From a virus: a stretch of 56,674 bases of DNA. Positions 22,108-45,946 of this stretch are shown piece after piece (the first letter of the stretch is position 1; the number at the start of each line of letters is the position of its first letter). Where the stretch lies: IMG/VR virus record IMGVR_UViG_3300037826_000110, positions 1 to 56,674 of that record; one strand, 5' to 3'. Under the pieces are notes generated by a model. The model was not told the DNA's origin. It searched no databases and saw only the letters and a program-made list of their open reading frames with translations. A program made the position numbers and the translations under genes.

Positions 22108-22719
22108 TTAAAACATCTGTAACTGTGTTTCCGCGTTGCCGGTTGGTTGCTCCTGCCGGCGTCGCTCCCACTCCGGGGCGTCGTCTTTGCCCTGTAACCA
22201 CAACTCTTGCGCTTCCTCTGCGTAGGGATCAGTGACGTTGCCTTGCGGATCCAGACGGCAGCCTTCGTCTAACCAATACTGCACATCGCGCCCCATCGCC
22301 CGACCGCGACCCGTGTGATTGTCCAGGGCGTGATCCGGGATGTCGTGGCGCTCGTCCATAAATTCCTGCGTGACCGCACGCTGAAAGTGATCGGCGACCC
22401 TCGACTTGGGTGCCCGACTCATTAGGAGCAGGGCGTTGCCCAAGATCAGACGGCAAGTGCCATCTTTGCCGTGCGATCGAAAAAAGAAGTACTGCGCACG
22501 CAGGGCCGGAATCGTGCTTAGCAACTCCGGACTGGCGATACCAATATCCTCGTTGACGATCACCAACAGACGCCGCCATAGGTATTGTTCGTAGCGTGGA
22601 ATCAGCTCCAGTGCCCAGTACATCGCCGAGCGTTCGTCTCCCCGACGAATCTCCTTCTGGATCGCCGAGATGACCTCCAATAGTGGATGGTTGTGCTGTG
22701 TATAGGCTCTAAATCCCAT
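22108..22719 (-). CDS. Stand-alone RarA/MgsA C-terminal-like domain protein
   Basis: This 203-aa protein resembles only the C-terminal tetramerisation/substrate domain of the RarA (MgsA, WRNIP1) clamp-loader-like ATPase: DERSAMYWALELIPRYEQ, then RRLLVIVNEDIGIASPELL, then LLLMSRAPKSRVAD. The AAA+ ATPase domain is absent. RarA acts at stalled replication forks; a domain-only version may hijack or inhibit host RarA, or work with the phage replisome. The gene follows ribozyme-like element 1. Confidence 0.7.
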   Translation of the reverse strand: MGFRAYTQHNHPLLEVISAIQKEIRRGDERSAMYWALELIPRYEQYLWRRLLVIVNEDIGIASPELLSTIPALRAQYFFFRSHGKDGTCRLILGNALLLMSRAPKSRVADHFQRAVTQEFMDERHDIPDHALDNHTGRGRAMGRDVQYWLDEGCRLDPQGNVTDPYAEEAQELWLQGKDDAPEWERRRQEQPTGNAETQLQMF

Positions 22720-22754: not shown

Positions 22755-22831
22755 TGACCTGCCTTATCAATGATCGGATGGTCAATCCCGATCAGACGCC
22801 CGGCCTAGAGGCCAGGCGTTTCGGCTATGTC
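22755..22831 (-). ncRNA. Type II hammerhead ribozyme-like RNA, copy 1 (RadC / RarA-like junction)
   Basis: Reading the minus strand: stem II strand GCC, GAAA core, stem III (10 pairs including one U-G, loop UCUA), GUC cleavage triplet (22797-22795), stem I UGAUCGG/CCGAUCA, core UUGAUAA, stem II strand GGC, then GGUCA, which can pair with UGACC in loop I. Predicted cut is between 22795 and 22794. The RadC stop codon overlaps its 5' end. Confidence 0.75.
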
Positions 22832-23538
22832 TCGAACCCCTTTCCCTGCTCGCGCAGGCTAATGTAACGGTTGTGGCCGATGACCATGTGATCCAGGACA
22901 TCCAGCTCCATCAGTTTCCCGACCTCCACTAATCTGCGGGTTAGCATAATGTCCTCCGGCGAGGGGTTAGGATCGCCAGAGGGATGATTGTGCGCGACGA
23001 TGATCGAAGCGCAGTTACGGCGAATCGCCCCCCGAAAAACCTCCGCTGTGCGGACCAGGGAAGTGTTGAGGCTCCCCTTATAGAGGATTTCCTTGTCGAT
23101 TACGCGATTGCGCGTGTCCAGATATAGGACCGCGAAGTTCTCTTGCTCGGCATCCCCGATGTAGGGAGTGAGGATGTGCGAGGCATCCGAAGGAGACCGG
23201 ATCTGTTCACGATCCGGCCCGGATTCCAAGGTCATGCGCACGCCCAGTTCCAGGGCCGCCATAAGGCGCGCGGCTTGTGAGGGACCAATGCCGTCGATGG
23301 CCGTCAATTGACTCTCCTCCGCCCGGCGCAAACCGTGCAACGATCCAAACTTAGCGACTAACTGATTGGCAATACTCAGGGCCTCGCCCCCCTGTACAAT
23401 TGCCGCTAGTAATTCCACCAAGTTCACGTACCGCACGCCTACCTCACGCACGCGGTTTACCGGTTTCTCGGACTCCGGTAAGTCGTCCACGCGCAATCCA
23501 GGCGGGGTATGTTGCAACATGCTCATTTGTGCTACCAT
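22825..23538 (-). CDS. radC: RadC-like JAB-domain protein
   Basis: A 237-aa RadC family protein. It has an N-terminal helix-hairpin-helix (LTAIDGIGPSQAARLMAALELG) and a C-terminal JAMM metalloprotease motif, HNHPSGDPNPSPED (H-x-H-x7-S-x2-D). ATG 23538 has GGAGGTGTAAGAGA upstream. RadC proteins are common on mobile elements and phages; the reaction is unproven, although the metal ligands are intact. It lies between ribozyme-like elements 1 and 2. Confidence 0.9.
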   Translation of the reverse strand: MVAQMSMLQHTPPGLRVDDLPESEKPVNRVREVGVRYVNLVELLAAIVQGGEALSIANQLVAKFGSLHGLRRAEESQLTAIDGIGPSQAARLMAALELGVRMTLESGPDREQIRSPSDASHILTPYIGDAEQENFAVLYLDTRNRVIDKEILYKGSLNTSLVRTAEVFRGAIRRNCASIIVAHNHPSGDPNPSPEDIMLTRRLVEVGKLMELDVLDHMVIGHNRYISLREQGKGFET

Positions 23539-23815: not shown

Positions 23816-24715
23816 CTACTGATAGGGGCACTCGCCCGGGATCAGGGGGCTAGGACCATTGGGGAAGGACACGATCTTGTGCTGCAATAGTCCGCGATAG
23901 ATCGTCCCCGCTATCCTTGCGGCCTCATCTTCGCCCGCGTCCACCAGATCCTTGATGTAGCGCTCCATCGCGCTGGCTACCGAGCGGGCCTTGCGCATCG
24001 AAGGAAGCTCGTCATCCACCGGAATCACCCGGTCCGGTCGCGCTTCCTCCTCCGCAGCGCGCACATCCTGGACCTTGGTCATAAAGGTGGCCATATCGAA
24101 CATCGCTTCCTGCGCCTGCTCTTCCAACAATCTCGCGCAGAGCTTGCGAAACTCTTTCAGGCGCGGGGTATCCACCTCCGCCAGATAACGCAGAGCAATG
24201 CGCTGCCGATTGGTATCCAGGTCGCGAAGCGCATACGCATATTTGATGCCCATCTGCCCGTCTTTGACTAATTTCTGAGCCTCGGGCACCGTATCCAAAA
24301 GCGCCAGTCGCAAGCGCACCCGCTGAGGACTCACGTTCGCAATCTTGGCGACCTGTTTGGCGTCCCAGCCAAATTTCTCCATCCGTTTTTGGTAGGCGCG
24401 CGCTTCCTCAATCGGATTCAGTTCGTTGCGTTGCACATTCTCCAAAAGCATGACGGAAGAGGCTTGCTGATCCGAAAGCGTGCGCACCAAGGCCGGAATG
24501 GTCTCGCGCTCCAGGAGGCCAAAGGCCCGCCAACGCCGTTCACCGGCTACCACCTGAAAGCGCTCCCCCACCGGTCGCAAGGTGATGGGCTGCGCGAGGC
24601 CGTGCTGCTTGATGCTGGCCGCCAGTTCCTGCAGGCTCTCTGTATCAAAGTCCTGGCGATCATTATCGCCGGGGTCAATTAGGACCATCCGTATATCCTG
24701 TATCTGCTCTTGCAT
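23816..24715 (-). CDS. parB: ParB/Spo0J-family partition-type protein
   Basis: I choose ATG 24715 (MQEQIQDIRMVLIDPG) because CACGGAGGTG precedes it; the longer frame would include ribozyme copy 3. The 299-aa product has the ParB CTP-binding box GERRWRA (58-64), the ENVQRNELNPIEEA segment (92-105) and a helix-turn-helix (WDAKQVAKIANVSPQRVRLR). True ParB clamps load on ~16-bp palindromes (parS) and spread. No ParA was found, so it may work with the ParM/ParR set, in gene control, or through the nine dispersed palindromes. Confidence 0.85.
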   Translation of the reverse strand: MQEQIQDIRMVLIDPGDNDRQDFDTESLQELAASIKQHGLAQPITLRPVGERFQVVAGERRWRAFGLLERETIPALVRTLSDQQASSVMLLENVQRNELNPIEEARAYQKRMEKFGWDAKQVAKIANVSPQRVRLRLALLDTVPEAQKLVKDGQMGIKYAYALRDLDTNRQRIALRYLAEVDTPRLKEFRKLCARLLEEQAQEAMFDMATFMTKVQDVRAAEEEARPDRVIPVDDELPSMRKARSVASAMERYIKDLVDAGEDEAARIAGTIYRGLLQHKIVSFPNGPSPLIPGECPYQ

Positions 24716-24737
24716 TCTCTCACACCTCCGTGGTTTA

Positions 24738-24811
24738 TGATCTGCCTTATCAATAATCGGGCGATCAATCCCGATTAGACGCCGGGGACTCCCGGCGTTT
24801 CGGCTATAACT
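24738..24811 (-). ncRNA. Type II hammerhead ribozyme-like RNA, copy 3 (54-aa gene / ParB junction)
   Basis: GCC, GAAA, stem III ACGCCGGG/CCCGGCGU, GUC (24780-24778), stem I UAAUCGGG/CCCGAUUA, UUGAUAA, GGC. Here loop I has UGAUC and the 3' tail has GAUCA: both sides of the pseudoknot changed together relative to the other copies (UGACC/GGUCA). Predicted cut is between 24778 and 24777. Confidence 0.8.
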
Positions 24812-24968
24812 CATGGCGTTGCGCACGTCCAAAAGCGCGCAATTCGTAGTATCCGATCACACATCCGCCCACCTCGATAGTGAAACGCTGCGCATCGCAA
24901 TACCACGCATAATCCTCAGCATCACGCACATCCTCAAAATACACGCCTTCCACATTATACAATTCCAT
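24804..24968 (-). CDS. Unknown 54-aa protein
   Basis: ATG 24968 with CACGGAGGTGTAAGA upstream, the same context as its neighbours. The 54-aa product begins MELYNVEGVYFEDVRDAEDY, is acidic with a CVIGYYELRAFG strand, and ends at a TAG inside the 5' edge of ribozyme-like element 3. No family is recognised. Confidence 0.65.
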   Translation of the reverse strand: MELYNVEGVYFEDVRDAEDYAWYCDAQRFTIEVGGCVIGYYELRAFGRAQRHEL

Positions 24969-28571: not shown

Positions 28572-28587
28572 TATTTCCCAGGAAATA
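28572..28587. repeat. Dispersed palindrome, copy 4 of 9
   Basis: TATTTCCCAGGAAATA, centre CA, with ATT/AAT flanks on both sides. It lies between the L3 terminator and the holin ribosome binding site. Confidence 0.85.
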
Positions 28588-29277: not shown

Positions 29278-30036
29278 TTAAGTTGTTATCCCAATACTTC
29301 GCGCACTGCCCGCCATCAAATCCAGATACGTCGCGTAGATATCCAGGTCGTGCGACATCACCAAGCGATACACGTACTGCGCGGCATACGTAGCCACCGC
29401 CTGATTGATCATCAAGCTCTGCGCATCCCGTATAGTCAGCTCCGCGCAGGACTCGGCCTCCGTCGCTGGCTGATCGGGAACCAAGAGCTCCGGATGCTGC
29501 ACGGTGGGGAGGGGAAGATCCAGACAGTGCCCGGCCTCGATGCTGGGCAATTTGCTGTTGGTCGTGTTCCCCAGTAGGACCTGACCGCTGGCCTCGTGGT
29601 TACCGCAGTCCAACCACCAGACGAGCCGCGAGGAATCGACGATGGCCTCGTGAATGGCCTTCCGGGCGGCAGCGTTATCCACCGCGCCCACGACCAGCGT
29701 GAACTGGTGACGCTTGGCGGTGATAAAGTCTGACTGGAATTTCTGCGGACGACACTGAATCCGCAGGCCGAAAGCCGTGCTGTACCGGCGTGTCAATGCG
29801 ACGGCCTTGTTACGTCCTATCTCGGCGGGGGCGAAGTTCTGCCGTCCGATGTTCTTTTCCTCCACGACGTCGGGATCGCAGAAGGACAACCGAACGTCTT
29901 TGCCCTGCGCGTGATAGGCCAGGCGCGCTAGGTGCAAAGCCAGGAATGAGCCGGTCCCTCCGCAACCCACCAGGAGGATATTGTACGCGGCGGGATCCCC
30001 GACTAGGACAGGGTAGCGTCTCTCCGGCCTATCCAC
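29278..30036 (-). CDS. ThiF/E1-like activating enzyme (PRTRC ThiF-like)
   Basis: GTG 30036 has GGGAGG 7 bases upstream and gives 252 aa. It has an adenylation Rossmann motif (ILLVGCGGTGSFLALHLARL), FCDPDVVEEKNIGRQNF and DCGNHEASGQVLLGN. The end is SCAELTIRDAQSLMINQAVA, close to the pattern of PRTRC-system ThiF proteins. E1-like enzymes adenylate the C-terminus of a ubiquitin-like protein. Neighbouring genes encode JAB, E2-like and ubiquitin-like proteins, so a full conjugation pathway is likely. Confidence 0.8.
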   Translation of the reverse strand: MDRPERRYPVLVGDPAAYNILLVGCGGTGSFLALHLARLAYHAQGKDVRLSFCDPDVVEEKNIGRQNFAPAEIGRNKAVALTRRYSTAFGLRIQCRPQKFQSDFITAKRHQFTLVVGAVDNAAARKAIHEAIVDSSRLVWWLDCGNHEASGQVLLGNTTNSKLPSIEAGHCLDLPLPTVQHPELLVPDQPATEAESCAELTIRDAQSLMINQAVATYAAQYVYRLVMSHDLDIYATYLDLMAGSARSIGITT

Positions 30037-30256
30037 GCCGCGCCTCCCGCTCGGCCTGCAATCGGGCACGCTCCTGATCTACTACGCGCCATAGGTCGCG
30101 GACCTCTTTCTGCAATGCGCGCGCCTGCACGGCCAACTCGTCGAAACGCTGGCGTATCTCATCATCGCGACCGCCAAGGCGAACGACGGAGCGAATGTAA
30201 TAATCCAACGTACCCAAATCTATGTACGGATACGTGTTGTCATCTGGGTTTTGCAT
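30029..30256 (-). CDS. Small coiled-coil protein
   Basis: A 75-aa protein. After a short N-terminal part (YPYIDLGTLDYYIRSVV) it is a continuous charged coiled coil to the end. The stop overlaps the ThiF start by 8 bases. It could be an adaptor for the E1/JAB proteins; no known family. Confidence 0.55.
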   Translation of the reverse strand: MQNPDDNTYPYIDLGTLDYYIRSVVRLGGRDDEIRQRFDELAVQARALQKEVRDLWRVVDQERARLQAEREARRG

Positions 30257-30264
30257 GGTTCCTC

Positions 30265-30882
30265 CTAAAACGGAATAGTGCGATTATGGACATCCTCAAA
30301 TGGCCATGCCCCGGTGAACAGTGTCTCAATAGCTACATTACCGTAGTCACCGTAGACACCCACCCGCAGACACATCTGCGGGCGCTCGTCGAAGATCCGC
30401 CCGATCACACCATAGAAACGCAAGCCTTGCTCGTCGCGGGTATCCTCGCTGGAAAAGAAAACGTTCATCTGGTGATGGCTGTGGATGTCGGCGATGATGT
30501 CCGCGTCATCGCCTCCCTCGTAGGTCAGGCGCGCACTGCCGGCCTGTTGCGACGGTCGCCACACGCTGACCAAGCCGTCACGCAGCACGAGGTGATACAG
30601 AACCTCACGCGGCCCCTCGCGGGCCACGCTGCGCGCGTTGACCAGGATCTGACGCAAGAGAATGTTTTGGATGGGGCTGAAGTCTAAGTCCACAAACGGC
30701 TCTAGCTTCGGCAGTCCAGCCACGCGACACGCCGCGACCTGAATGCAGGCGGTGAAGTGCCGCGCGCGGGCTAACTTGAAGATGCCATTGCCCGCGAGCA
30801 CGTAGGCGTAGGCTTTCCCCGACGACAAGCTCGGGGTATGGCCATTATGCATCAGATAATCTACGGGATTCGGTAACATCAT
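30265..30882 (-). CDS. JAB/JAMM isopeptidase (PRTRC protein A-like)
   Basis: About 205 aa, starting in the stop of the E2-like gene (ATGATG overlap); an ATG three codons earlier lacks a ribosome binding site. The JAMM motif is complete: HSHHQMNVFFSSED (H-x-H-x7-S-x2-D), followed by DTRDEQGLRFYGVIG, as in PRTRC system protein A. In eukaryotes and bacterial ubiquitin-like systems such peptidases trim or remove ubiquitin-like proteins; maturing the Ub-MazG fusion is a natural inference. Confidence 0.8.
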   Translation of the reverse strand: MMLPNPVDYLMHNGHTPSLSSGKAYAYVLAGNGIFKLARARHFTACIQVAACRVAGLPKLEPFVDLDFSPIQNILLRQILVNARSVAREGPREVLYHLVLRDGLVSVWRPSQQAGSARLTYEGGDDADIIADIHSHHQMNVFFSSEDTRDEQGLRFYGVIGRIFDERPQMCLRVGVYGDYGNVAIETLFTGAWPFEDVHNRTIPF

Positions 30883-31583
30883 GCCTCCCATAAGTGCCGA
30901 AGGGCCAGGTTACTATGTCTCAGGTCTTCAAGGGGATATTCATCCGCACCGACCACGACAGGATCGCGCCACATCGCGATGATGCTCTCCTCGTATTTCT
31001 TGGATTTGCCGTCTTCCAAGTCGTGATTGAACTGGCTAGCGAAGAACATTTCCGCAGCCTCACAAATCGTTTCCACCGTGCAAGCCGGGAACGGGACATC
31101 CCCCTGGCACACACGTCCGTCGCGCCAGATGTTTGGCGCGGGGAAATAGTACAGTGGTTCCCGTCCGGCTGCGGGGTAACGCCGGACCGCGAAGATCCTG
31201 TACGTGCGACCCTGCCCTACGAAAACGGCCGGTGGGAAGGGTACACGCATGTCCACCACTTCACCCTCATGGTACAGCTTCACCGTGCGCACCTGGGGAG
31301 GGCGATATATACCCAAACGCGGTTGTGCCCCCAGATCACAAAACAGGCAATTGCGGGGCAGCAACCCCGACACTATCGGCAGCCCGGCCATCGAGGCCGC
31401 CAGAGCATCCGGCGATACCTCGTAGCACTGCGCGACGTGCCCATGCTCAAAGCGCGTCATCACGATGGACTCGTCGTACAGGTCCAGGCGCATGCGCAGC
31501 GCCTGGCGTTGCTCTACGTCCACCCCGGTCCCTGCGAGACCCAAGGCAGATAGGTGTTCTATTTTTCCATTTTCTGGTTCCAT
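30879..31583 (-). CDS. E2-like protein (PRTRC protein B/Prok-E2_D-like)
   Basis: A 234-aa protein with GGAGTAAATAAA before ATG 31583. The middle and end match PRTRC protein B: PFPPAVFVGQGRTYRIFAV, YYFPAPNIWRDGRVCQGDVPFP and AEMFFASQFNHDL. The Cys in GRVCQG is the candidate catalytic cysteine of this E2-like family. Together with the JAB and ThiF genes it forms a ubiquitin-type relay. Confidence 0.75.
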   Translation of the reverse strand: MEPENGKIEHLSALGLAGTGVDVEQRQALRMRLDLYDESIVMTRFEHGHVAQCYEVSPDALAASMAGLPIVSGLLPRNCLFCDLGAQPRLGIYRPPQVRTVKLYHEGEVVDMRVPFPPAVFVGQGRTYRIFAVRRYPAAGREPLYYFPAPNIWRDGRVCQGDVPFPACTVETICEAAEMFFASQFNHDLEDGKSKKYEESIIAMWRDPVVVGADEYPLEDLRHSNLALRHLWEA

Positions 31584-31588
31584 TTTAT

Positions 31589-32473
31589 TTACTCCTCATA
31601 CGTTCGCTCTATCTGATACCGTCTGACGTCGTCAACCCACTCTTGCTCCACCAACGGCGGGGCGGGGGTACGATTGCGATAGTCCTCCTCCAGGCCGTCG
31701 AAGTAGCGCACCGCGTCCTCCACAGCGCGCCGAGGCTGTTCGTCGAAATACTCTTGCAGATCGCGACGTACAGGGACCCAGTGCTTGATCTCGCTGTAAG
31801 AGGTGGCCAAAAAGAGGATGTCGTGCAGATTGAATCTCGGCATCCCATAGTTCATACTGCCATACTCCTCAAAGTAGTAATCGCAGTAGTCAAACCACGG
31901 GTTGCCGGTTTCCTTGCGCACACACTGATACACCACGGCCAGGGCGCTGAAGGGCTGCGGCAGGGCCTCCAAATGCTCCACTGCCCATACCGCGTCGCTG
32001 GGCCAGGTGTACTGTCGCGGGGGGCGGATACCATGTGCCCCCCACCACTCTATGAGTCGCTCGCTGTACGAATCTACCCCCTCACAGACGTGGTTAATAA
32101 CGACGGCGATCATTAGGCAGGCCAGGGTGTCGAAGTTGCTGAAGTCCTCGACTTCCCACTCGATGCCCCACGCTGCGAAGGGAATCTCGTGCCAACCCTC
32201 CACCAGTGTCGGATGGTCGAACTCGCGCTCGTAGACCAGGTAATCGGCATACAAGCCGTTAAGCGGGAAGAACTCCTGATTGATACGAACCAGAAGCTCC
32301 TGCTCGGCAGCCTGCAAGCCCCCCAACACCGGGAGCTCATCGCCGAATAGCTCGCGCCACAGCTCGGCCATATTATGATACTCCTTATAGCCCCCCAGAC
32401 GGTCAGCGATCGCCCCGTAGGACGGCAGGCGATAGCGAGTCAAAGCCTGGACGACGGCTTGCAGAGAAATCAT
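31589..32473 (-). CDS. Unknown 294-aa protein of the ubiquitin-like cassette
   Basis: ATG 32473 overlaps the previous stop as ATGA. The product is acidic, Trp/Tyr-rich and mostly helical (YADYLVYEREFDHPTLVEGW, WPSDAVWAVEHLEALP). No motif is recognised. It sits in tight linkage just before the E2-like gene, which suggests a partner or target-binding role in the same pathway. Confidence 0.6.
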   Translation of the reverse strand: MISLQAVVQALTRYRLPSYGAIADRLGGYKEYHNMAELWRELFGDELPVLGGLQAAEQELLVRINQEFFPLNGLYADYLVYEREFDHPTLVEGWHEIPFAAWGIEWEVEDFSNFDTLACLMIAVVINHVCEGVDSYSERLIEWWGAHGIRPPRQYTWPSDAVWAVEHLEALPQPFSALAVVYQCVRKETGNPWFDYCDYYFEEYGSMNYGMPRFNLHDILFLATSYSEIKHWVPVRRDLQEYFDEQPRRAVEDAVRYFDGLEEDYRNRTPAPPLVEQEWVDDVRRYQIERTYEE

Positions 32474-32682
32474 GCTTCGCTGTCCAGGTCGAATAGCTCT
32501 GGCTGGCCCTGCCGTCGCATGATCCAGGCTTTCGGTATCGGTTGCGTGTGCCGACACTGTGGGAAGTTAGGGCAGCCCAAAAACTGAGAGTGGTTGTGGC
32601 GGTTGGTTTTGATGAGCAAGGGGACGTTGCACTCTGGGCAACGGAGTGCGGTGGGCTGGTTGTTCTCAAATAGCGGTTCCAT
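32470..32682 (-). CDS. Topoisomerase-type zinc ribbon protein
   Basis: ATG 32682 (MEPLFENNQPTALRCPEC) with GGAGAGGGCG upstream gives 70 aa. It has one zf-C4 topoisomerase-type ribbon, CPECNVPLLIKTNRHN then FLGCPNFPQCRHTQPIP, followed by a short tail. In topoisomerase I this module binds single-stranded DNA; here it stands alone. Confidence 0.7.
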   Translation of the reverse strand: MEPLFENNQPTALRCPECNVPLLIKTNRHNHSQFLGCPNFPQCRHTQPIPKAWIMRRQGQPELFDLDSEA

Positions 32683-33443: not shown

Positions 33444-33677
33444 CTAAAATCCTTCTGGCACCCGCTTACCGGGCACCGGGTCCAAAGCTTCCAGACGCTC
33501 ACGAAACTTCTCCACGGCTTCAATATGTGCGTAGAGGTCCAGGAGCGCCCGTTCTATCTCCGCCTGGCGCTGGGCGACATCCGCCCCGGCCTCCAGGTCC
33601 AGCAGGAGCCGGACGGCGGCGAGCTCCAACGGGGGAACCTCCGCCATCCGCTCCGCAAGCTCACGCGCCGTCGTCAT
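33444..33677 (-). CDS. Small helical protein
   Basis: ATG 33677 (MTTARELAERMAEVPPLE) lies inside the end of the Ub-MazG gene, so it is probably translationally coupled; the longer upstream frame is only that gene's shadow. The 77-aa product is helical and charged (RQAEIERALLDLYAHIEAVEKF). No known family. Confidence 0.5.
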   Translation of the reverse strand: MTTARELAERMAEVPPLELAAVRLLLDLEAGADVAQRQAEIERALLDLYAHIEAVEKFRERLEALDPVPGKRVPEGF

Positions 33678-34113
33678 CCGGGATAACCGGGCCGTGCTGC
33701 TCGAGGGCCGCGACGCAGAGAGCGGCCATTTTGACAATGCGATACCGTGCTCTGCTAAGTTCTTCAGCGCCAATATCTTGTGAAGCATGCCCCCATTCCT
33801 CAGCGATATAATCCAGCCACACGCTGGGACCATGGCGTTTTCCGTCAATCTCACCGTTTAACGTCATGCGTTCTTGCACGTTGCAGATTGCCGCTAGCAC
33901 ATTGGCGCGGCTGACCAACGCACCCTTGGTCCCCGCACGCTTGACGAAGGTAACCACCTTGTTACCTTCGTCGTCCTCGCTCTCCTCGACGCTGGCGTTA
34001 GCCAGCTCCGGAAAGTATTGGCGCAGGTGATCCTGCATCTGCTGCGTTGTAAGCTCGTCTTCCTCGTCCCGATATTCATAGTCCCCGTGGGGATATTTGT
34101 AAATCGTTGCCAT
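33661..34113 (-). CDS. Ubiquitin-like (PRTRC protein C-like) domain fused to MazG-like domain
   Basis: A 150-aa protein with GGAGGAATTGAGAG upstream. Residues 1-64 match the beta-grasp Prok_Ub family of PRTRC protein C (QYFPELANASVEESEDD, VVTFVKRAGTKG). In that family GTKG is normally the C-terminus. Here ~86 residues follow (VLAAICNVQERMTLNGE, PSVWLDYIAEEWGHASQDI, KMAALCVAALE), resembling a MazG-type NTP pyrophosphohydrolase domain with EEWGH in place of EExGE. Cleavage after GTKG by the JAB peptidase would free a ubiquitin-like protein; that step is inferred. Confidence 0.7.
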   Translation of the reverse strand: MATIYKYPHGDYEYRDEEDELTTQQMQDHLRQYFPELANASVEESEDDEGNKVVTFVKRAGTKGALVSRANVLAAICNVQERMTLNGEIDGKRHGPSVWLDYIAEEWGHASQDIGAEELSRARYRIVKMAALCVAALEQHGPVIPDDDGA

Positions 34114-34144: not shown

Positions 34145-35614
34145 TCACGCCGGGGCGCGATCTTCCTCAGATTCCTGCTCAAATATATCAATGCCTATTT
34201 CCTCGCGGATCATTCTAGCCATCACCGAGGCCAGGTGCCCTAGGTCACTCTTGTCTATGGCCCCGGGCCGTCCGGGCTTTCCCACCGAGACGGTGACCGC
34301 CAGATCCTCCGGGCTTTCCCCATTCTGGGGTACGTCGATGCGGGCCGTGAGAATAATTTGCGGCTTGGGGGGAGGCGGAGGGGGCACCGCTGGCCTTGAT
34401 GATGCCGGCGGCGGCGATTGGGGCTCACTCAGCGTCCCCACCGCAACCCCACACCGCGCGTTATTCGCAATCCCCGCATCCTGCGCCGCGTCCACCGGCG
34501 CGCTGGCTATGTGCTCCGGAGCCGATAACTCATGCTCTTCCGGCTGCGGATTGCCGGCGCGTTCCCAGCAATCGGGGCAGATGTTGATGCCCGCGAAGCG
34601 GTACCAATCGCGCTCTTTGTCGTTGGCGACCTCGGTACCGCAGGCGCGGCAGCGGGTCCAGAACGTCGGGCGGTGCGTTTTCCACCCGGCGTGCTGCTCG
34701 TACATGCGCTTGGCCAACGCTGGTCCTTCGACCTGCTTCTCGAAGGTCGTGCTCTTGAGCTCAAAGCACGTCCGCCAAGAGCAGCGCAACTCCCGACCGA
34801 TCTTTGTCGCATACCGGCATCCCGCGCAGGCATGCATGATGCCGTTGCCGGGGACCTGGGGTTTCATCTCTGGCTCCCAGTCCATGGCCCACGGTGCACC
34901 ATCGAGGGAGGCCGTCTCCGTCTCGATGTGGCGCTTGACGGCCATCTCCACGTCGACCACGCTGCGCTCATGGCCCAGGAGACGCATGTACGTGGGCTTT
35001 TCCTCACCAAGGGCCACCAGGGGTAGCAGTGCCCGGGCGTGCCGTTCGCCCAGACCCCGCGCCACCTCATCCTGGATGAAGTCGGGGAGTTGCAGGAGGC
35101 GCAGTTTGTTGGCTACGGTGCTCTGACTGAGGCCCCAGCGGTTGCCGATCTCCGCCTGGGTCCAGCCAAATTTTTCCCCCGCCATCTGCATCATGCGCGC
35201 CTGCTCGATAGCGTTGTTGTCCTCGCGCTCTTGATTTTCCTGGAAGGCGATGTCGGCCATGGCCTCGTCGTCCAGTGCCTTGAGGTCGACGGGGAACGTG
35301 GCGTATGTGGTGTCGCTCTGCGCGCTGAAGGTCTCGTGAATCAGTCGGAAGGCGCGCAGACGCCGATGGCCGGCGGCCAGTTGGATCTCCAGCCCTTCAC
35401 GACGGCCGTCCTCGATCCGCGCCACGGCCTCGGCGGGATCCAGGACCTCGCCGTTCAATAGCGCCCGCGCCGGGGGGACGTGGATTAGGCCGCTGGTTTC
35501 GGGAAGCTCGTGGCGCATTTGTAAAATTGAGTTCTCCAGGTCGGCGGTGTAGTACTTCATCCGCGCCTGGAATGGATTGTCACTGATCATCTTATTTGCT
35601 ACTCTGGTAATCAT
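34145..35614 (-). CDS. ParB-family protein with zinc-binding C-terminus (PRTRC ParB-like)
   Basis: A 489-aa protein with GGAGGCAAAACCG before ATG 35614. It has a ParB CTPase-type box GHRRLRA (82-88), ENQEREDNNAIEQARMM and a helix-turn-helix (WTQAEIGNRWGLSQSTVANKL). A Cys-rich part follows (CAGCRYATKIGRELRC, then CRACGTEVAND, then CPDCWERAG), probably two zinc sites, and a Pro-rich region. ParB next to ThiF/E2/JAB/Ub-like genes defines PRTRC cassettes. A palindrome copy lies 23 bases upstream. Confidence 0.8.
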   Translation of the reverse strand: MITRVANKMISDNPFQARMKYYTADLENSILQMRHELPETSGLIHVPPARALLNGEVLDPAEAVARIEDGRREGLEIQLAAGHRRLRAFRLIHETFSAQSDTTYATFPVDLKALDDEAMADIAFQENQEREDNNAIEQARMMQMAGEKFGWTQAEIGNRWGLSQSTVANKLRLLQLPDFIQDEVARGLGERHARALLPLVALGEEKPTYMRLLGHERSVVDVEMAVKRHIETETASLDGAPWAMDWEPEMKPQVPGNGIMHACAGCRYATKIGRELRCSWRTCFELKSTTFEKQVEGPALAKRMYEQHAGWKTHRPTFWTRCRACGTEVANDKERDWYRFAGINICPDCWERAGNPQPEEHELSAPEHIASAPVDAAQDAGIANNARCGVAVGTLSEPQSPPPASSRPAVPPPPPPKPQIILTARIDVPQNGESPEDLAVTVSVGKPGRPGAIDKSDLGHLASVMARMIREEIGIDIFEQESEEDRAPA

Positions 35615-39694: not shown

Positions 39695-41143
39695 ATGAAA
39701 ATCACAGAAGCAACACCGCAGCAAAGAAACAACGCTCCCTTTGTGACGCATATGACTGCCAGGAACATCGGCAAGGGGTACGCCGAGACCCTAATACTAA
39801 TCGCCTACTATCTCCCGGACGGCGACGTCCTAGAGGGAACTAGCGAAGAATTCGGTGCAGTCTTCGACATTCACGAACGCAGCTTCAGGAATCATGTCAA
39901 GGCCCTATCACGAGCCGGATGCCTACTTTACACGAAACCAGAATACGGGCTATACAAAATCATAAGAATTTCACAGACAGAAGAGGAACTAAACACCCTC
40001 GTCGATTGCTGGAATTTCATTCCAGATGAGATCAAAAAGCGCGATGCGTTGGATTTTGTCACGTCTGCTTTCCTGTCGAAATGGAAAGAATTTTCCGAAA
40101 GTGGGGGGGAATGGAAAGAATTTTCCACCTTAGAGGAAGAGGCACCGGAAGCAAAACGGAAAGAATTTTCCGAAACTCCGCAAAATGGAAGAAATTTTCC
40201 AAGTTCAGACGAAGAGGAGCAAGGCGAGGAATGGAAAGAATTTTCCGAAAGTGGGGGAGAATGGAAAGAATTTTCCAACTCGGATGGCGAAAGACGGAAA
40301 GAATTTTCCGTAACCCCCATTGAACGGAAAAAAATTTCCGAAAGTGGGGGGAAACGGAAAGAATTTTCCGAAAGCGATCCCCCTGTTGTTGTTATTAATC
40401 ATGATCATGTCTTTGAGAGACAATTTTCTAAAGATAAAAAACAACAACAGCAAGCATCTGAGCCACAAAACGGCGATTCAGCGCAGGGGTTTGCGTCGAA
40501 CGATTTTTCCGAACGTCAAAAGCTTGCCTTGAATGCTCTGCGTTCCGTGCGTGTGGGTCGCAATGCACAGCGTGAATTCATACGCGACCATGATCCGCAG
40601 CGCATCCTAGACGTCGTTGCGGCGGCGAAGGTTGACGCAACCGTCAAAAACAAAGCGGGGTATGTGTGCAAGGCCCTCCGCGAAGGGTGGGAGATCGCGG
40701 TGCCGAAATCCGAGCCCGAGAAACGTCAGGAAAAATGGGCCGGATGGGAACAACAAAACGCCCAAGCCACCGCGCGCCTGCATCAAGCGGTCGCCGCTGC
40801 CGCCGAGCAATCCGGTAACGGCAACGGGGGCGAATCTGCCAAGATCTGGCGCGGCGTCCTGGGTGAACTGGAGCTCCAGATGACCCGCGCGACCTTCGAC
40901 ACCTGGCTGCGGGATACAAACTGCCTGGGTCGGGAGGATAACGGCGACGGTGAGACGCTGATCATCGGCGTGAAGAACGGCTACGCCGTGGAATGGCTAG
41001 AACATCGGCTGTACACCGTCATCCAACGCACACTCCACCGCGTCGTGGGGCAGCACACAGAGGCGCGCTTCGTTGTCTGGGATGAGGAAGCGCAGGAAGT
41101 CACAGAGCCGGCCTTGGAGCCGGTCACAGGAGGAGTAGGGTGA
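39695..41143 (+). CDS. Replication initiator: winged helix, iteron-encoding region, DnaA domain I-like C-terminus
   Basis: A 482-aa protein. Residues ~20-100 form a winged helix (AETLILIAYYLPDGDVLEG, FDIHERSFRNHVKALSRAG) as in phage/plasmid initiators. Residues ~128-226 are a repetitive WKEFSESGGE-type linker whose DNA is a set of iterons. Residues ~380-465 resemble DnaA domain I (KIWRGVLGELELQMTRATFD, LIIGVKNGYAVEWLEHRLY). DnaA domain I recruits the replicative helicase, so this protein probably binds its own gene and loads host DnaB. No phage polymerase or helicase was found in the genome. Confidence 0.75.
   Translation: MKITEATPQQRNNAPFVTHMTARNIGKGYAETLILIAYYLPDGDVLEGTSEEFGAVFDIHERSFRNHVKALSRAGCLLYTKPEYGLYKIIRISQTEEELNTLVDCWNFIPDEIKKRDALDFVTSAFLSKWKEFSESGGEWKEFSTLEEEAPEAKRKEFSETPQNGRNFPSSDEEEQGEEWKEFSESGGEWKEFSNSDGERRKEFSVTPIERKKISESGGKRKEFSESDPPVVVINHDHVFERQFSKDKKQQQQASEPQNGDSAQGFASNDFSERQKLALNALRSVRVGRNAQREFIRDHDPQRILDVVAAAKVDATVKNKAGYVCKALREGWEIAVPKSEPEKRQEKWAGWEQQNAQATARLHQAVAAAAEQSGNGNGGESAKIWRGVLGELELQMTRATFDTWLRDTNCLGREDNGDGETLIIGVKNGYAVEWLEHRLYTVIQRTLHRVVGQHTEARFVVWDEEAQEVTEPALEPVTGGVG
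40083..40369 (+). repeat. Nine iterons inside the rep gene (candidate replication origin)
   Basis: Copies of GGAAAGAATTTTCC begin at 40083, 40113, 40158, 40187 (variant), 40233, 40263, 40296, 40326 (variant) and 40356. Spacing is mostly 29-33 bases or about 45, roughly whole helical turns. An AT-rich stretch follows (40384-40455). Iterons within the initiator gene followed by AT-rich DNA mirror the lambda ori inside gene O. Confidence 0.75.
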
Positions 41144-41394: not shown

Positions 41395-41754
41395 ATGCCC
41401 CAGACCCCGCAACGCCGCGCGCGCTATCCCGCCGACTGGCGCATCATCGCCACCAGCGTCAAGGACCAAGCCGCCTGGTGCTGCGAGCACTGCGGACGGC
41501 CCCACGATCCTCTCAACGGTCACCCGCTCACCGTCCACCACCTGGACAACACGCCAGAGAACAACCAGTGGTACAACCTGGTGGCGTTGTGCCTGCCGTG
41601 CCATGCCAAGATCGCGGCGCATTACACACCGGGGCAGCGGACGTTTGATTTCTACGAGCCCCCGGCATGGATGGCCGAGCGGGGTCTGGTACGCGGGGCG
41701 CGGCAGATGGCGTTTTGGTTTTATGGACCTGGGGAATTATTTCCCAGGAAATAA
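41395..41754 (+). CDS. HNH endonuclease
   Basis: A 119-aa protein with WCCEHCGRP, LTVHHLDNTPENNQWYNLV and ALCLPCHAKI, the complete HNH signature with its structural zinc cysteines. The end (LFPRK) is encoded by a palindrome copy. HNH enzymes often lie near phage terminase genes; here it sits in the plasmid operon, so a homing or plasmid-processing nick is also possible. Confidence 0.85.
   Translation: MPQTPQRRARYPADWRIIATSVKDQAAWCCEHCGRPHDPLNGHPLTVHHLDNTPENNQWYNLVALCLPCHAKIAAHYTPGQRTFDFYEPPAWMAERGLVRGARQMAFWFYGPGELFPRK
41738..41753. repeat. Dispersed palindrome, copy 7 of 9
   Basis: TATTTCCCAGGAAATA, centre CA, with ATT/AAT flanks on both sides. It overlaps the last codons of the HNH gene, 25 bases before the ParM start. 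Confidence 0.85.
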
Positions 41755-41777
41755 TCACACAACACGGAGGAATTGAG

Positions 41778-42749
41778 ATGCAATTAGGCATAGACTTAGG
41801 TTACAACGAAGTAAAATCGGTATCGGACAAGGAACACCAGCGCTTCCCAGCGGTCATAGGCACGCCAGAGGAAGCCTCGTTCTCACTGAACGGCGATCAG
41901 AGCATGATCTTGCTCAAGCCGGCGCACGTCTCTCTGGGGATGGGGGCCGTGATGCACTCGCGTTTCAATAATCGCCGCGAGTCACGGAACTGGATTGAGA
42001 CGGCCGACTATCACCACCTGTTCTGTGGCGCGCTCACACAGCACACCACAGCCACACAGATCAGTGTGGACCTGGTGACCGGCTTACCCATCGCCTTCTA
42101 CGGCGATAAGGGACGTCTGGCCGGGATCTTGACCGGAGAGCACAGCGTCCAGGTCCAGGGGCGCACGGCGCAGCTCTTTAGGGTCAATCACGTGCGCGTG
42201 ATCCCGCAGCCGTTCGGAAGCTTGCTCAGCGTAGTTCTGGATGGCCGGGGGCAGATCGTGGACAATGACCTGGCCCTATCGCGGGTGGGCGTGATCGACG
42301 TCGGAGGCAAGACCACCAACCTCCTCAGCGTCCACAAGCTGACGGAGCTGGACCGTGAGTCCACCAGCGTCAGCGCTGGGGGGTGGCGCTTAGTGCGTGC
42401 AGTTCGGCAGTGGCTGGCGGCCAACAAGCCCGGCCTCGACGAAATGCGCGATCACGAACTGGCTGAGGCAATCAAGGTGCAGCGCATTAACTGCGCTGGC
42501 GAGCCGGTGAGCGAATTTCCGAGCATCGTCAGCGGCTACGCCGATAGCCTGGCTCAAGAAATCATCGCCACCGCCACACAACTGTGGAACGGTGGGGCGC
42601 TCCTGGACAAGATCCTGGTCACCGGGGGCGGAGCCCTATTACTGGGGGAGGCTATCCGCACCCGCTGGCCACGGGCGGAGATTGTTCCGTCGCCGGTATA
42701 CGCGAATGCCATCGGCTATCACCGCCTGGCTAAGCGGTTGTACGGGTAG
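41778..42749 (+). CDS. parM: ParM/Alp-type actin-like ATPase
   Basis: ATG 41778 (MQLGIDLGYNEVKSV) has GGAGG 7 bases upstream; the longer frame is rejected. The 323-aa product has phosphate 1 (GIDLGYNEVKS), phosphate 2 (GVIDVGGKTTNLLSV) and the adenosine motif (ILVTGGGALLLGEAI) of actin-fold ATPases. ParM filaments push plasmid copies apart by binding ParR-parC complexes. The candidate parC repeats and ParR follow directly. Confidence 0.85.
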   Translation: MQLGIDLGYNEVKSVSDKEHQRFPAVIGTPEEASFSLNGDQSMILLKPAHVSLGMGAVMHSRFNNRRESRNWIETADYHHLFCGALTQHTTATQISVDLVTGLPIAFYGDKGRLAGILTGEHSVQVQGRTAQLFRVNHVRVIPQPFGSLLSVVLDGRGQIVDNDLALSRVGVIDVGGKTTNLLSVHKLTELDRESTSVSAGGWRLVRAVRQWLAANKPGLDEMRDHELAEAIKVQRINCAGEPVSEFPSIVSGYADSLAQEIIATATQLWNGGALLDKILVTGGGALLLGEAIRTRWPRAEIVPSPVYANAIGYHRLAKRLYG

Positions 42750-43620: not shown

Positions 43621-44679
43621 ATGCTTAGAATATTATCGTATATTTTCGTAGTAGGCGGCATTATCGCCGGGCTAGTAGCTTGTGGCGCGGCCTCGTCACA
43701 ATGGCCCCAGGCTACCCGCAGCGATTTCGACATCCTGGCGGAGGCACAGCAGATCCGCGAGGATGAGCAGTTCAACATCCTCTCCCGGGCTAGGGAGATC
43801 GAAATGCAGTTCACGGCTACGGCCGAGGCTGCCCGCGCCACCACCACCGCCGAGGCCTACCGCGTGTGGGCCGAGCAGGCTAAGGCCGAGGCGACTGCAA
43901 CGGCTGTCGCTGCCCAGATCCGGGCCACGGCCACTGCCGAGGCCAACTACATCCGCGCGACCGCCACCACTGAGGCTGTGCGCGCCACGGCGACCGCGGA
44001 GGCCGTGCTATTTGCGCAACAGGCTACTGTCACCGCGCAACAGTGGATGGAACGCGCCACGGCGACGGCGGAGGCGCAACGCCTTAATGCGATAGCTACC
44101 ACCTCCGCCATTTACGCTCAATCCACGGCGACGGCGGTGGAGGTGCGCAAACGCGAGTTGCAACTAGAACGGGAGGAGAATATGAACCAGGTCCGGGCTA
44201 TGATCCCCTACGGTATCATCATTCTATCAGCAGGCGTAATCCTGTGGGGGGCGGTGCGTTTGATCATGGCCGTTGAGTTGCGGGTGCGTGCGATTCCCCG
44301 TGATGAGCGCGGGGATGCGCCGGTGATGATGCTCTCCTTCCGGGGCGCCACGTATGCCTACGACCCGGATCGGGGATTCGGGCCGGTGACCATGTTCACC
44401 GCCGAGGGAGCCGCGCAACCGGCGATGGCACGTGAGGAGATCCAAGAGCGTGTCACCGCCAGGGACCAAACCGTGGACCTGGTACATCGGGGATTCGAGG
44501 GGCAAGGGGGCCGACGTCGGCGGGTGACAGCACAGCAGGCGGGGGAGCTGATGGCGCAGCCGGCCTTGCCCGGCCCGGTGCACGTCGTGCCTCCGGAGCA
44601 GGTGGGGCGTTGGCTTAAGGATGTTGAGCCGCAGGCTATGGCTCAATTAGTGGAGGGGGAGGTATTGAATGATAAATAA
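43621..44679 (+). CDS. Lipobox protein with ATAEA repeats and a central membrane helix
   Basis: A 352-aa protein with AAGGAGGAGGGG before the ATG. The N-terminus ends in a lipobox (LVAC-G, ~residue 21). Residues ~60-175 are repeated ATAEA/RATATAEA units forming an alpha-helical stalk. A second membrane helix (YGIIILSAGVILWGAVRLI) spans ~195-215, and a cytoplasmic C-terminal part follows (~135 aa). Ala-Thr-Ala-Glu repeats are common in Chloroflexota surface proteins. It may anchor the FtsK-like ATPase. Confidence 0.65.
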   Translation: MLRILSYIFVVGGIIAGLVACGAASSQWPQATRSDFDILAEAQQIREDEQFNILSRAREIEMQFTATAEAARATTTAEAYRVWAEQAKAEATATAVAAQIRATATAEANYIRATATTEAVRATATAEAVLFAQQATVTAQQWMERATATAEAQRLNAIATTSAIYAQSTATAVEVRKRELQLEREENMNQVRAMIPYGIIILSAGVILWGAVRLIMAVELRVRAIPRDERGDAPVMMLSFRGATYAYDPDRGFGPVTMFTAEGAAQPAMAREEIQERVTARDQTVDLVHRGFEGQGGRRRRVTAQQAGELMAQPALPGPVHVVPPEQVGRWLKDVEPQAMAQLVEGEVLNDK

Positions 44680-45946
44680 GCGAAGGATTATGGAAGCCAC
44701 CGCGGTGGCGCAGCGGGTACCGGAAGTTTTACGGGGTCGGGGATTGACCCCGGCGTTTCAGGACTGGCCACTCACCGAACACAACGGGCTCCTATGGCTG
44801 TTCGGGGTGCTGGATTTGCAGCACATCGAAAAGCTGGAGCGCTACACGGACGCCAGCCTGCTGCATCACATCAGCACCGTGCTGGGCGGTCTCCCCGTGT
44901 TTCTCTCCAATACCTCCGGCTTACGCTACGCTATTCTCCTCTCCCATCCTCCGCAGCTCCCCGACCGTATCGACTACCCCGGCCTCAAGCGGGGGCTGGC
45001 TCAACTGGGGCGCAAGTGCACCGGGGGCGGTGTCGCGGTACCGTGGGAGGAAATACGCCATCTTCTGGTAGCCGGGATGACGGGCGCGGGGAAGTCCAAC
45101 TTCCTGCGCCTGATCGCCTACCAGGGGCTTGCCGAGGGGCATCGGTTGCTCCTGGCGGACATGGACGGCGCCACCTTCCCTATGCTGGCCGGGCACGAGG
45201 CGCTGCTGGAGCCGTTGGCGCGTGATCCACAGGGGATGCTAGAGATCGTCGAGCGCGCCTTGGGGGAGTGCGATCATCGCGCTGAGTTGTACGCGCAGGT
45301 GCCCGGTTTCCCCGACAATCTACCGGAGTATAATGAACTGGTGGTCAAGGCCGGGGTCGCGCCCCTGCCGCGTTTGCTGGTGGTCTTGGATGAGTTCAAT
45401 TCCGCCGTGACCTCGGCGGGTGGTGCGCGGGGCACGCTGGCCAGTGCAGCCGCCGAGCTGGGATGGCGCGGGCGGAAATTCGGCATCAACCTGGTTTTTG
45501 CCGCGCAGGATTTCTCTAAGTCTGTGGTGGGCCGGGTGCGTGATCAGGTCGGGGCCGCGATCTGTTTCCGGGTGCGCAGCCGTGAGACGGCACGCGCCAT
45601 GCGCTGTGAGCAGGCGGCCAAGATTGCCCCGGGGCGGCCGGGTCTGGCGGTTACGGATCGCTGGGGACCGATGCAAGCGTATTTTCTGGATAAGTCACTC
45701 TTGATCCAGGCGGGGCGGTCCCGGGCGGAGAGTGGATTGAGCGAGGCGGAGCGCGTGATGGTCCGTTGGGCGATGGCGAATAACGAGGGTTATCTCCCTA
45801 CGCGCGTAATCCGTGAGCAATTGGGAGCCGGGTATCGGGAGGCGCGCAGTCTGGCGGAGGATTGGGAGCTGCGGGGGTGGCTGGCCAAGGACGCGGGGGC
45901 CAGGAACACGCGGCAGGTGACGGCGAAGTTGGAGGCGTTGGTGTGA
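44669..45946 (+). CDS. FtsK/TraB-type DNA translocase ATPase
   Basis: A 425-aa protein overlapping the previous gene by 11 bases. Walker A GMTGAGKS (~137-144), Walker B LLVVLDEF (~240) and an AAQD-type sensor (LVFAAQDFSKSVVG) mark the FtsK/HerA family. The C-terminal ~80 residues are a winged helix, like the DNA-reading gamma domain. It has no membrane helix of its own; the two membrane proteins before it may supply one. It could serve plasmid segregation or TraB-like conjugation. Confidence 0.8.
   Translation: MINKRRIMEATAVAQRVPEVLRGRGLTPAFQDWPLTEHNGLLWLFGVLDLQHIEKLERYTDASLLHHISTVLGGLPVFLSNTSGLRYAILLSHPPQLPDRIDYPGLKRGLAQLGRKCTGGGVAVPWEEIRHLLVAGMTGAGKSNFLRLIAYQGLAEGHRLLLADMDGATFPMLAGHEALLEPLARDPQGMLEIVERALGECDHRAELYAQVPGFPDNLPEYNELVVKAGVAPLPRLLVVLDEFNSAVTSAGGARGTLASAAAELGWRGRKFGINLVFAAQDFSKSVVGRVRDQVGAAICFRVRSRETARAMRCEQAAKIAPGRPGLAVTDRWGPMQAYFLDKSLLIQAGRSRAESGLSEAERVMVRWAMANNEGYLPTRVIREQLGAGYREARSLAEDWELRGWLAKDAGARNTRQVTAKLEALV

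Follow-up and report, generated by a model that had tools for sequence, protein, structure and literature searches.

The question raised by this locus is why the ubiquitin-like (Ubl) protein of a putative conjugation cassette runs on past a GTKG motif into a MazG-like domain. The locus is located in the window, the whole stretch of 56,674 nucleotides that was analysed, which corresponds to positions 1 to 56,674 of IMG/VR virus record IMGVR_UViG_3300037826_000110. The original prediction described a Ubl fused to a MazG-like domain at 33661-34113 and allowed for either a precursor cut by the neighbouring JAMM peptidase or a Ubl that serves to target a nucleotide-hydrolysing domain. The fusion itself is confirmed, on the minus strand, by a Prok_Ub match, a beta-grasp model and a profile of 13 MazG-like proteins.

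The record encodes major head, portal, large terminase and tape-measure proteins and is therefore a tailed phage. Its host is probably a Chloroflexota bacterium, since the nearest cellular relatives of its ThiF protein are from Anaerolineae/Chloroflexota genomes (up to 59%, among the best 80 of 196 loci). The cassette genes (Table 1) are arranged in the order ParB, C (Ubl), F, B, A, ThiF, which is the order on Cupriavidus pMOL28, with extra small genes in between and no protein E seen. The cassette is, as judged by profile scores, a diverged relative of PRTRC, because ThiF passes its curated cut-off while A, B, C and D fail theirs (NCBIfam scores and cut-offs of 52.5 and 101.8 bits for A, 68.6 and 131.45 for B, 95.6 and 214.8 for D). 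Properties of PRTRC are not automatically transferable to it, since the JAMM, E2 and Ubl proteins of the window lie below the NCBIfam cut-offs. The F-position protein had no family match in Pfam or NCBIfam, and the ParM/PRTRC_D-like protein probably belongs to the same maintenance module as the cassette. The JAMM gene lies about 2.8 kb downstream of the fusion gene, with an extent of 30265..30891 in place of the 30265..30882 given in the original prediction. Its active-site set is complete: all 12 relatives compared share E96, H137, H139, S147 and D150, and 99 of 100 homologues have the JAMM motif.

Table 1. Coordinates of the fusion gene, its parts and the associated cassette genes in the window.
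Feature	Position	Strand	Basis
E1-like ThiF protein, PRTRC type	29278..30069	-	TIGR03736, 172.9 bits, above cut-off of 144.75
JAMM peptidase PRTRC_A, intact HSHx7SxxD and E96	30265..30891	-	Prok-JAB; TIGR03735 E 4.5e-14, below cut-off
E2-like protein PRTRC_B	30879..31583	-	Prok-E2_D E 7e-21; Cys159 invariant in 12/12
PRTRC F-position protein	31589..32557	-	Position; homologues in 5 related loci
GF helical domain gene h81, 77 aa, 17-nt overlap with fusion end	33444..33677	-	Fused-tail profile, E 1.5e-10
Fusion ORF, 150 aa	33661..34113	-	ATG start; GGAGG a few bases upstream
MazG-like tail, residues 65-150 (86 aa), predicted inactive	33664..33921 (stop codon 33661-33663)	-	13-protein MazG-like profile and genome matches
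EEWGH, altered EExxE motif, residues 105-109	33787..33801	-	Alignment with 13 MazG-like proteins
GTKG codons, predicted site of cutting (after Gly64) and of conjugation	33922..33933	-	K and G conservation in relatives
Ubl beta-grasp domain, residues 1-64, ends KRAGTKG	33922..34113	-	Prok_Ub, beta-grasp model and sole Ubl-profile match in the window
ParB-like protein, cassette head	34145..35614	-	HTH_ParB; TIGR00180 above cut-off
ParM/PRTRC_D-like partition protein	41667..42749	+	TIGR03739 E 2.7e-27, below cut-off; phrog_691 partition protein E 1.1e-46

The fusion gene has a good ribosome-binding site. Residues 12-62 of its product match Prok_Ub PF14454 (E 4.2e-6, 26.9 bits) above the Pfam gathering cut-off of 25, which makes the protein a member of that family. 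Residues 15-64 match PRTRC_C, TIGR03738 of NCBIfam (E 4.5e-6, 26.7 bits against a cut-off of 45.95), and the match stops exactly at GTKG, whose proposed position at residues 61-64 was correct. The Ubl is thus related to PRTRC_C but, by the curated rule, not a member. The original prediction depended on a beta-grasp N-terminus, and AlphaFold2 predicts one with confidence: residues 3-57 are modelled as strand-strand-helix-strand-strand (block pLDDT about 88-95). The linker is poor (pLDDT 51) and the tail helices at 69-86, 96-113 and 116-140 are middling (57-80). Foldseek of the model against the PDB returned nothing at E 0.001 or better. A further structure search gave mostly beta-grasp matches (protein G/L, MoaD, FAT10, SUMO) with Z of about 5, which would be evidence for a beta-grasp and nothing more specific; the modelled Ubl of the relative L120, residues 1-61, superposes on ubiquitin 1-76, also with Z of about 5. 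When the Ubl profile was run against all ORFs of the window, the fusion gene scored E 2.9e-21 and the next-best match 0.72, and the fusion gene is on this basis the sole predicted Ubl gene in the window.

The tail received no name from Pfam, NCBIfam or PHROGs (best PHROG 0.064), and a sequence search of the PDB with it gave no match. A profile built from 13 standalone phage or prophage MazG-like proteins gave the fusion protein as its top hit in a set of 20,643 ORFs (E 0.0078); the native tail scored 18.1 bits and its shuffles at most 8.9 (2000 generated, 1899 reported by the program), a gap of 9 bits. The tail alone had two matches at E ≤ 0.01 in 201 Chloroflexota genomes (0.0033 and 0.0047), both MazG-like proteins. 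In the phage collection its only two matches were weak (E 0.2 and 0.4) and were near-identical proteins of two phages, one of them annotated as putative NTP pyrophosphohydrolase; the phage family of the MazG-like matches includes records annotated as MazG-like. Two independent searches with the tail both point, with moderate strength, to small phage MazG-like proteins, and homology to MazG-like proteins is proposed with moderate confidence. The structure search with the whole fusion was dominated by the N-terminal domain, and the absence of a MazG structure among the matches listed is no evidence against a MazG fold of the tail.

The acidic motif residues of MazG enzymes bind the metal. The tail does not carry the acidic motif EExxE plus ExxD/ELxQ of MazG-like NTP pyrophosphohydrolases: all 13 MazG-like relatives have E-E-x-x-E, with the third E kept in 13 of 13, and E-L-[IV]-[QE], and the window tail has EEWGH, with H in place of the third E, and RIVK. 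The earlier suggestion that EEWGH marks an inactive enzyme thus gains support from the alignment, and the predicted loss is wider than EEWGH, as it includes the change of ELxQ to RIVK. Loss of the catalytic motif is assigned with good confidence, and the tail is probably an inactive MazG-like pseudoenzyme. It shares the W..IL.EE and AA..A.E core with small phage MazG-like proteins such as gp039 of Pantoea phage AAS21 and that of Xanthomonas phage XbC2 but the third E of EExxE and two residues of ELxQ, E and Q, are absent from it; these proteins are standalone, whereas the MazG-like domain of the window is fused behind a Ubl. No close relative of the fusion with the same tail was found in the viral-contig scans with the fusion and with the tail or in the phage collection.

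Relatives were obtained only through ThiF searches and Ubl alignment, as overlapping sets of 15 loci, the best 80 of 248, the best 80 of 196 (ThiF searches) and 18 (Ubl alignment); scans of viral contigs with single queries (fusion protein, tail, Pantoea gp039, and a Ubl unit of Bacillus phage KLEB27-3) yielded no relative. All comparisons lie inside one superfamily of loci, collected mainly via ThiF. An iterated Ubl profile over 194 sequences gave 134 ORFs, or 107 distinct proteins. The Ubl ends at most 6 residues from the motif in 32 of these, is followed by a short tail in 3, by a helical domain of about 80 residues, usually ending in GF, in 48, and by other long tails in 24. The original prediction took GTKG as the normal end of PRTRC C; this is accurate for the 32, and fails for the 72 of 107 that run on for at least 25 residues. 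An assembly artefact with a lost stop codon was considered as the source of the tails and ruled out, since many unrelated contigs and MAGs are tailed.

The window, L002-L005, L007 and L008 each have a separate gene behind the Ubl to which the GF domain is homologous (E 1e-6 to 8e-14); judged by this homology, the domain is fused in some systems and a separate gene in others. The copies tested had no significant Pfam, NCBIfam or PDB match, and PDB searches with Ubl and Ubl-GF profiles gave no convincing relative. Among the 24 other long tails, L157 and L186 were judged frameshifted run-ons and L056, L057, L107, L111, L152 and L175 possibly diverged GF domains, leaving 16 clear other passengers; a separate GF gene lies close behind in 13 of these 16 loci. 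The GF domain is not universal, because no GF gene was found nearby in many relatives that end at KG, which counts against the reading preferred below. The passengers include, besides the MazG-like domain of the window, a phrog_29525 domain in L007 (E 4e-10) and phrog_1273 domains in L172 (E 3e-16), L034 (1.5e-6) and L027 (0.0017). Independent gains of tails were left uncounted, since the deep forks of the ThiF tree (best-scoring 60 of 103 rows that passed) are poorly resolved. Burkholderia phage BgVeeders33 (L199:4947-5336) is, besides KLEB27-3, a second isolated phage with a PRTRC-like cassette, and its Ubl continues for about 62 residues past GTKG.

Conservation of the Lys-Gly pair was tested with a Ubl profile deprived of its last 8 columns, and thus blind to the motif, to avoid circularity. 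KG was at the expected place in 100 of 103 distinct Ubl proteins, and was kept in 71 of the 72 with at least 33 residues beyond the profile, the single exception being L157, a probable frameshift. In 56 non-redundant fused proteins K and G are present in 56 of 56, with zero entropy, and the next 12 positions have 3.28-3.95 bits; this set omits L061, L157 and L171, which stop short of the profile end and are all three included in the motif-blind count. K and G are also the only two invariant columns in 35 diverse proteins with a Ubl and a GF-type tail. Selection at this site would act on the protein and not on a nucleotide signal, because the codons vary (AAG 41, AAA 30, and all four GGN used).

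The boundary behind KG is also visible in DNA. L047 and L062 are 88.8% identical up to positions 4219 and 4286, respectively, one base before the KG codons end; the tails that follow are unrelated, and 85% identity resumes at 4463 and 4554, with the last codon of the tail and the stop codon. A similar replacement is seen between L003 (as L018) and L129. Tails are, as these alignments indicate, exchanged precisely behind KG. In other relatives further Ubl units follow one another. Protein gp199 of Bacillus phage vB_BauM_KLEB27-3 (OM634661.1; L198:5488-6195, annotated as hypothetical), whose gene adjoins PRTRC_A-like and ThiF genes, consists of four tandem 57-residue Ubl units without linkers, each ending in GVKG, and then the 7 residues MPRIVVK. 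Units two and three are identical in protein and differ in 31 codons, all synonymous, with 0 nonsynonymous differences; other pairs of units have 18-29 synonymous and 1-6 nonsynonymous codon differences, and the two units of L071 have 26 and 3. Since the protein is kept despite synonymous divergence, all units apparently have to function as one and the same protein. Eukaryotic polyubiquitin units are conserved more in protein than in DNA. Tandem Ubls rest on these two cases, as a scan with a mixed Ubl alignment returned only two contigs, both already known. In the one pair compared for selection, L027 and L028, dN/dS is 0.27 for the tail and 0.28 for the Ubl; the passenger is under purifying selection, and passengers are not junk everywhere.

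The reading preferred here, with a probability of about 0.76, is that the cassette makes its ubiquitin-like modifier as a precursor, the fusion protein, which is cut by JAMM after Gly64 to provide Ubl-KG for conjugation, and that the MazG-like domain is a passenger in a permissive slot. The JAMM peptidase would cut behind GTKG and free a 64-residue Ubl with a C-terminal Lys-Gly, which would be adenylated by the ThiF/E1-like protein and passed to targets by the E2-like protein; JAMM may also take the Ubl off targets. The same cut would release the MazG-like domain as a separate protein of 86 residues. Because the join is cut, the position after KG would be permissive, so that unrelated small genes could be fused in frame and exchanged. 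The MazG-like passenger would derive from an entire small MazG-like ORF that was fused close to its start and later lost its catalytic residues; once released it may be a relic or, speculatively, a regulator, for example by pairing with active MazG-like dimers. The cut, the conjugation and any role of the released part are inferred. This reading draws its support from the internal KG, invariant while the following residues are unconserved; from unrelated tails swapped directly behind it; from the Ubl units in tandem; from the cutting and conjugating machinery (intact JAMM, E2 Cys and ThiF) encoded beside the only Ubl gene; and from the GF domain, which is fused after KG in 48 of 107 proteins yet a separate gene in the window. 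Cleavage by the neighbouring JAMM, as originally proposed, is in this respect well supported by sequence comparison.

A functional linker motif can likewise persist in two-domain proteins, which counts against the precursor reading, as does a site with Lys-Gly in place of Gly-Gly. In a stable two-domain effector the Ubl would remain attached so that E1/E2/JAMM or a partner could dock on it, the tail would do the work, and GTKG would be a linker or interaction motif. A physical partnership is suggested by the GF domain being fused or separate, and the L027/L028 passenger, constrained like the Ubl, indicates that passengers can matter. Such an effector is nevertheless unlikely, as the same slot holds unrelated tails in related phages, only K-G is invariant in the 35 tailed proteins, tandem units each finish in KG, and the conjugation enzymes would be left without a free Ubl C terminus where there is a single Ubl gene. 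The MazG-like part moreover lacks its catalytic positions. The other option of the original prediction, in which the Ubl permanently targets a nucleotide-hydrolysing domain, is disfavoured: the catalytic positions are lost, unrelated domains occupy the slot, and a blocked C terminus would deprive the E1/E2 genes of a usable substrate.

Two further readings dispense with cleavage or with function. The MazG-like domain could also be made from an in-frame TTG, with AAG GGT as a weak ribosome-binding site. The window codons are AAG GGT GCG TTG GTC AGC, with the TTG two codons past the AAG GGT of KG, the MazG-like relatives begin at the aligned position (MSQADILAAI against LVSRANVLAAI), and an ATG stands directly after KG in L062 and L067. 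This explanation is highly improbable, since most tails have no start codon beside KG, the Lys codon is AAA in 30 of 71, and the C terminus of the full-length Ubl would still be blocked. Slightly less probable again is a chance fusion, in which the Ubl gene recently lost its stop codon and ran on into a decaying MazG-like gene, with neither part affected and nothing gained. The degenerate appearance of the MazG-like part and the failure to find a close relative with the same tail would fit it; against it, fusions are the majority state (the 72 of 107 proteins above), the frame is open, and the passenger is conserved in the one pair tested (L027/L028). A chance origin would be compatible with the precursor reading, because cleavage would render such fusions harmless.

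The gene set of the window cassette corresponds to operon type 6d, with a Ubl, a JAMM with N-terminal extension, E1-like, E2-like and alpha-helical proteins in one operon, in the available description by Iyer, Burroughs and Aravind (2006, PMC1779556); from this gene content type 6d appears to be the later-named PRTRC cassette. In that description the Ubl is small and standalone with a C-terminal glycine, whereas that of the window superfamily has long exchangeable tails; unlike type 6d, the window cassette is in a tailed phage and has several components below the NCBIfam PRTRC cut-offs. The 2006 authors predicted that in such systems the JAB peptidase processes the Ubl and strips it from targets, and they described tandem Ubls in another operon type, 6e (PMC1779556). 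According to the part of a review that was available, BilA is processed by its peptidase before use (PMC11354881). The 6e/Bub polyubiquitin-like and BilA systems likewise have tandem or tailed Ubls with a JAB peptidase, but belong to other operon types and Ubl families, and the excerpts describing them contain no swappable tail cassettes. Tail protein I (TAPI) of lambda/T1 is, in the same 2006 account, a phage Ubl with a further domain, for which the JAB-containing tail protein K was proposed to cut (PMC1779556). It resembles the window fusion in having a Ubl, then a second domain, and a JAB nearby as proposed cutter, and differs in being a tail-assembly gene without E1 or E2. For other systems, a 2020 eLife paper proposes that a larger protein is cut by a JAB to release a Ubl (PMC7159879). 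The principle of JAB processing is hence already known, as a prediction.

Eukaryotic ubiquitin is made as precursors, namely polyubiquitin, ubiquitin-ribosomal protein fusions and FUBI-eS30, as summarized in the available part of the review (PMC11354881). Like the phage Ubls, these have a conserved C-terminal site inside the precursor, unrelated tails and head-to-tail units; the phage Ubls differ in having Lys-Gly and not Gly-Gly, a dedicated adjoining JAMM and many passengers, and their processing is predicted. There is about an even chance that phages and their relatives treat the Lys-Gly end of the Ubl as a slot in which genes can be exchanged. The Ubl would then be a cleavable carrier, yielding from one reading frame either a modifier with an interchangeable small accessory protein or several copies of the modifier; tails would be replaced as cassettes precisely behind the cut, and the arrangement would be the viral equivalent of polyubiquitin and of ubiquitin-ribosomal-protein fusions. 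The literature searched, as judged from listings, offered no account of tailed Ubls in phage PRTRC cassettes, and four features appear to be undescribed in it: the slot for exchangeable tails, the GF domain as a partner, the MazG-like passenger and the tetra-Ubl of a phage. PRTRC-type conjugation cassettes are common on plasmids: 393 of 72,556 plasmid records carry a ThiF relative (E ≤ 1e-5), although not all of these are necessarily PRTRC. Yet a literature search, judged by titles, turned up no experimental paper on them. Natural precursors that differ only past an invariant site are ready substrates with which a processing role of JAMM can be put to the test. With its tetra-Ubl, a cultured Bacillus phage would supply a polyubiquitin-like gene from a bacterial virus, open to experiment in a laboratory host.

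Several other features of the window were recorded. A second ParB-like protein is encoded at 23816-24832 (-), with TIGR00180 above cut-off; together with the ParM/PRTRC_D-like protein and the cassette's own ParB this suggests that the phage may persist as a plasmid. The sequence GGAAAGAATTTTCC recurs at 40083-40369 (+), in seven exact copies and two near copies with 2 mismatches, spaced about 30-45 bp. The array lies within the gene at 39695-41143, and the encoded protein shows a DnaA-like match at its C terminus (TIGR00362, E 4e-6). Sites of this type number 11 in the whole window against 0.18 expected, with one further near copy at 28581, and the array resembles an iteron-type origin of replication lying within an initiator gene. 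An FtsK/SpoIIIE or EccC-like ATPase is encoded at 44669-45946 (+) (phrog_1358, E 4e-21; TIGR03924, E 9e-18, below cut-off). The genes at 22108-22719 (-) and 22825-23538 (-) encode a protein that matches only the later part of RarA/MgsA-type ATPases and an adjoining RadC family protein.
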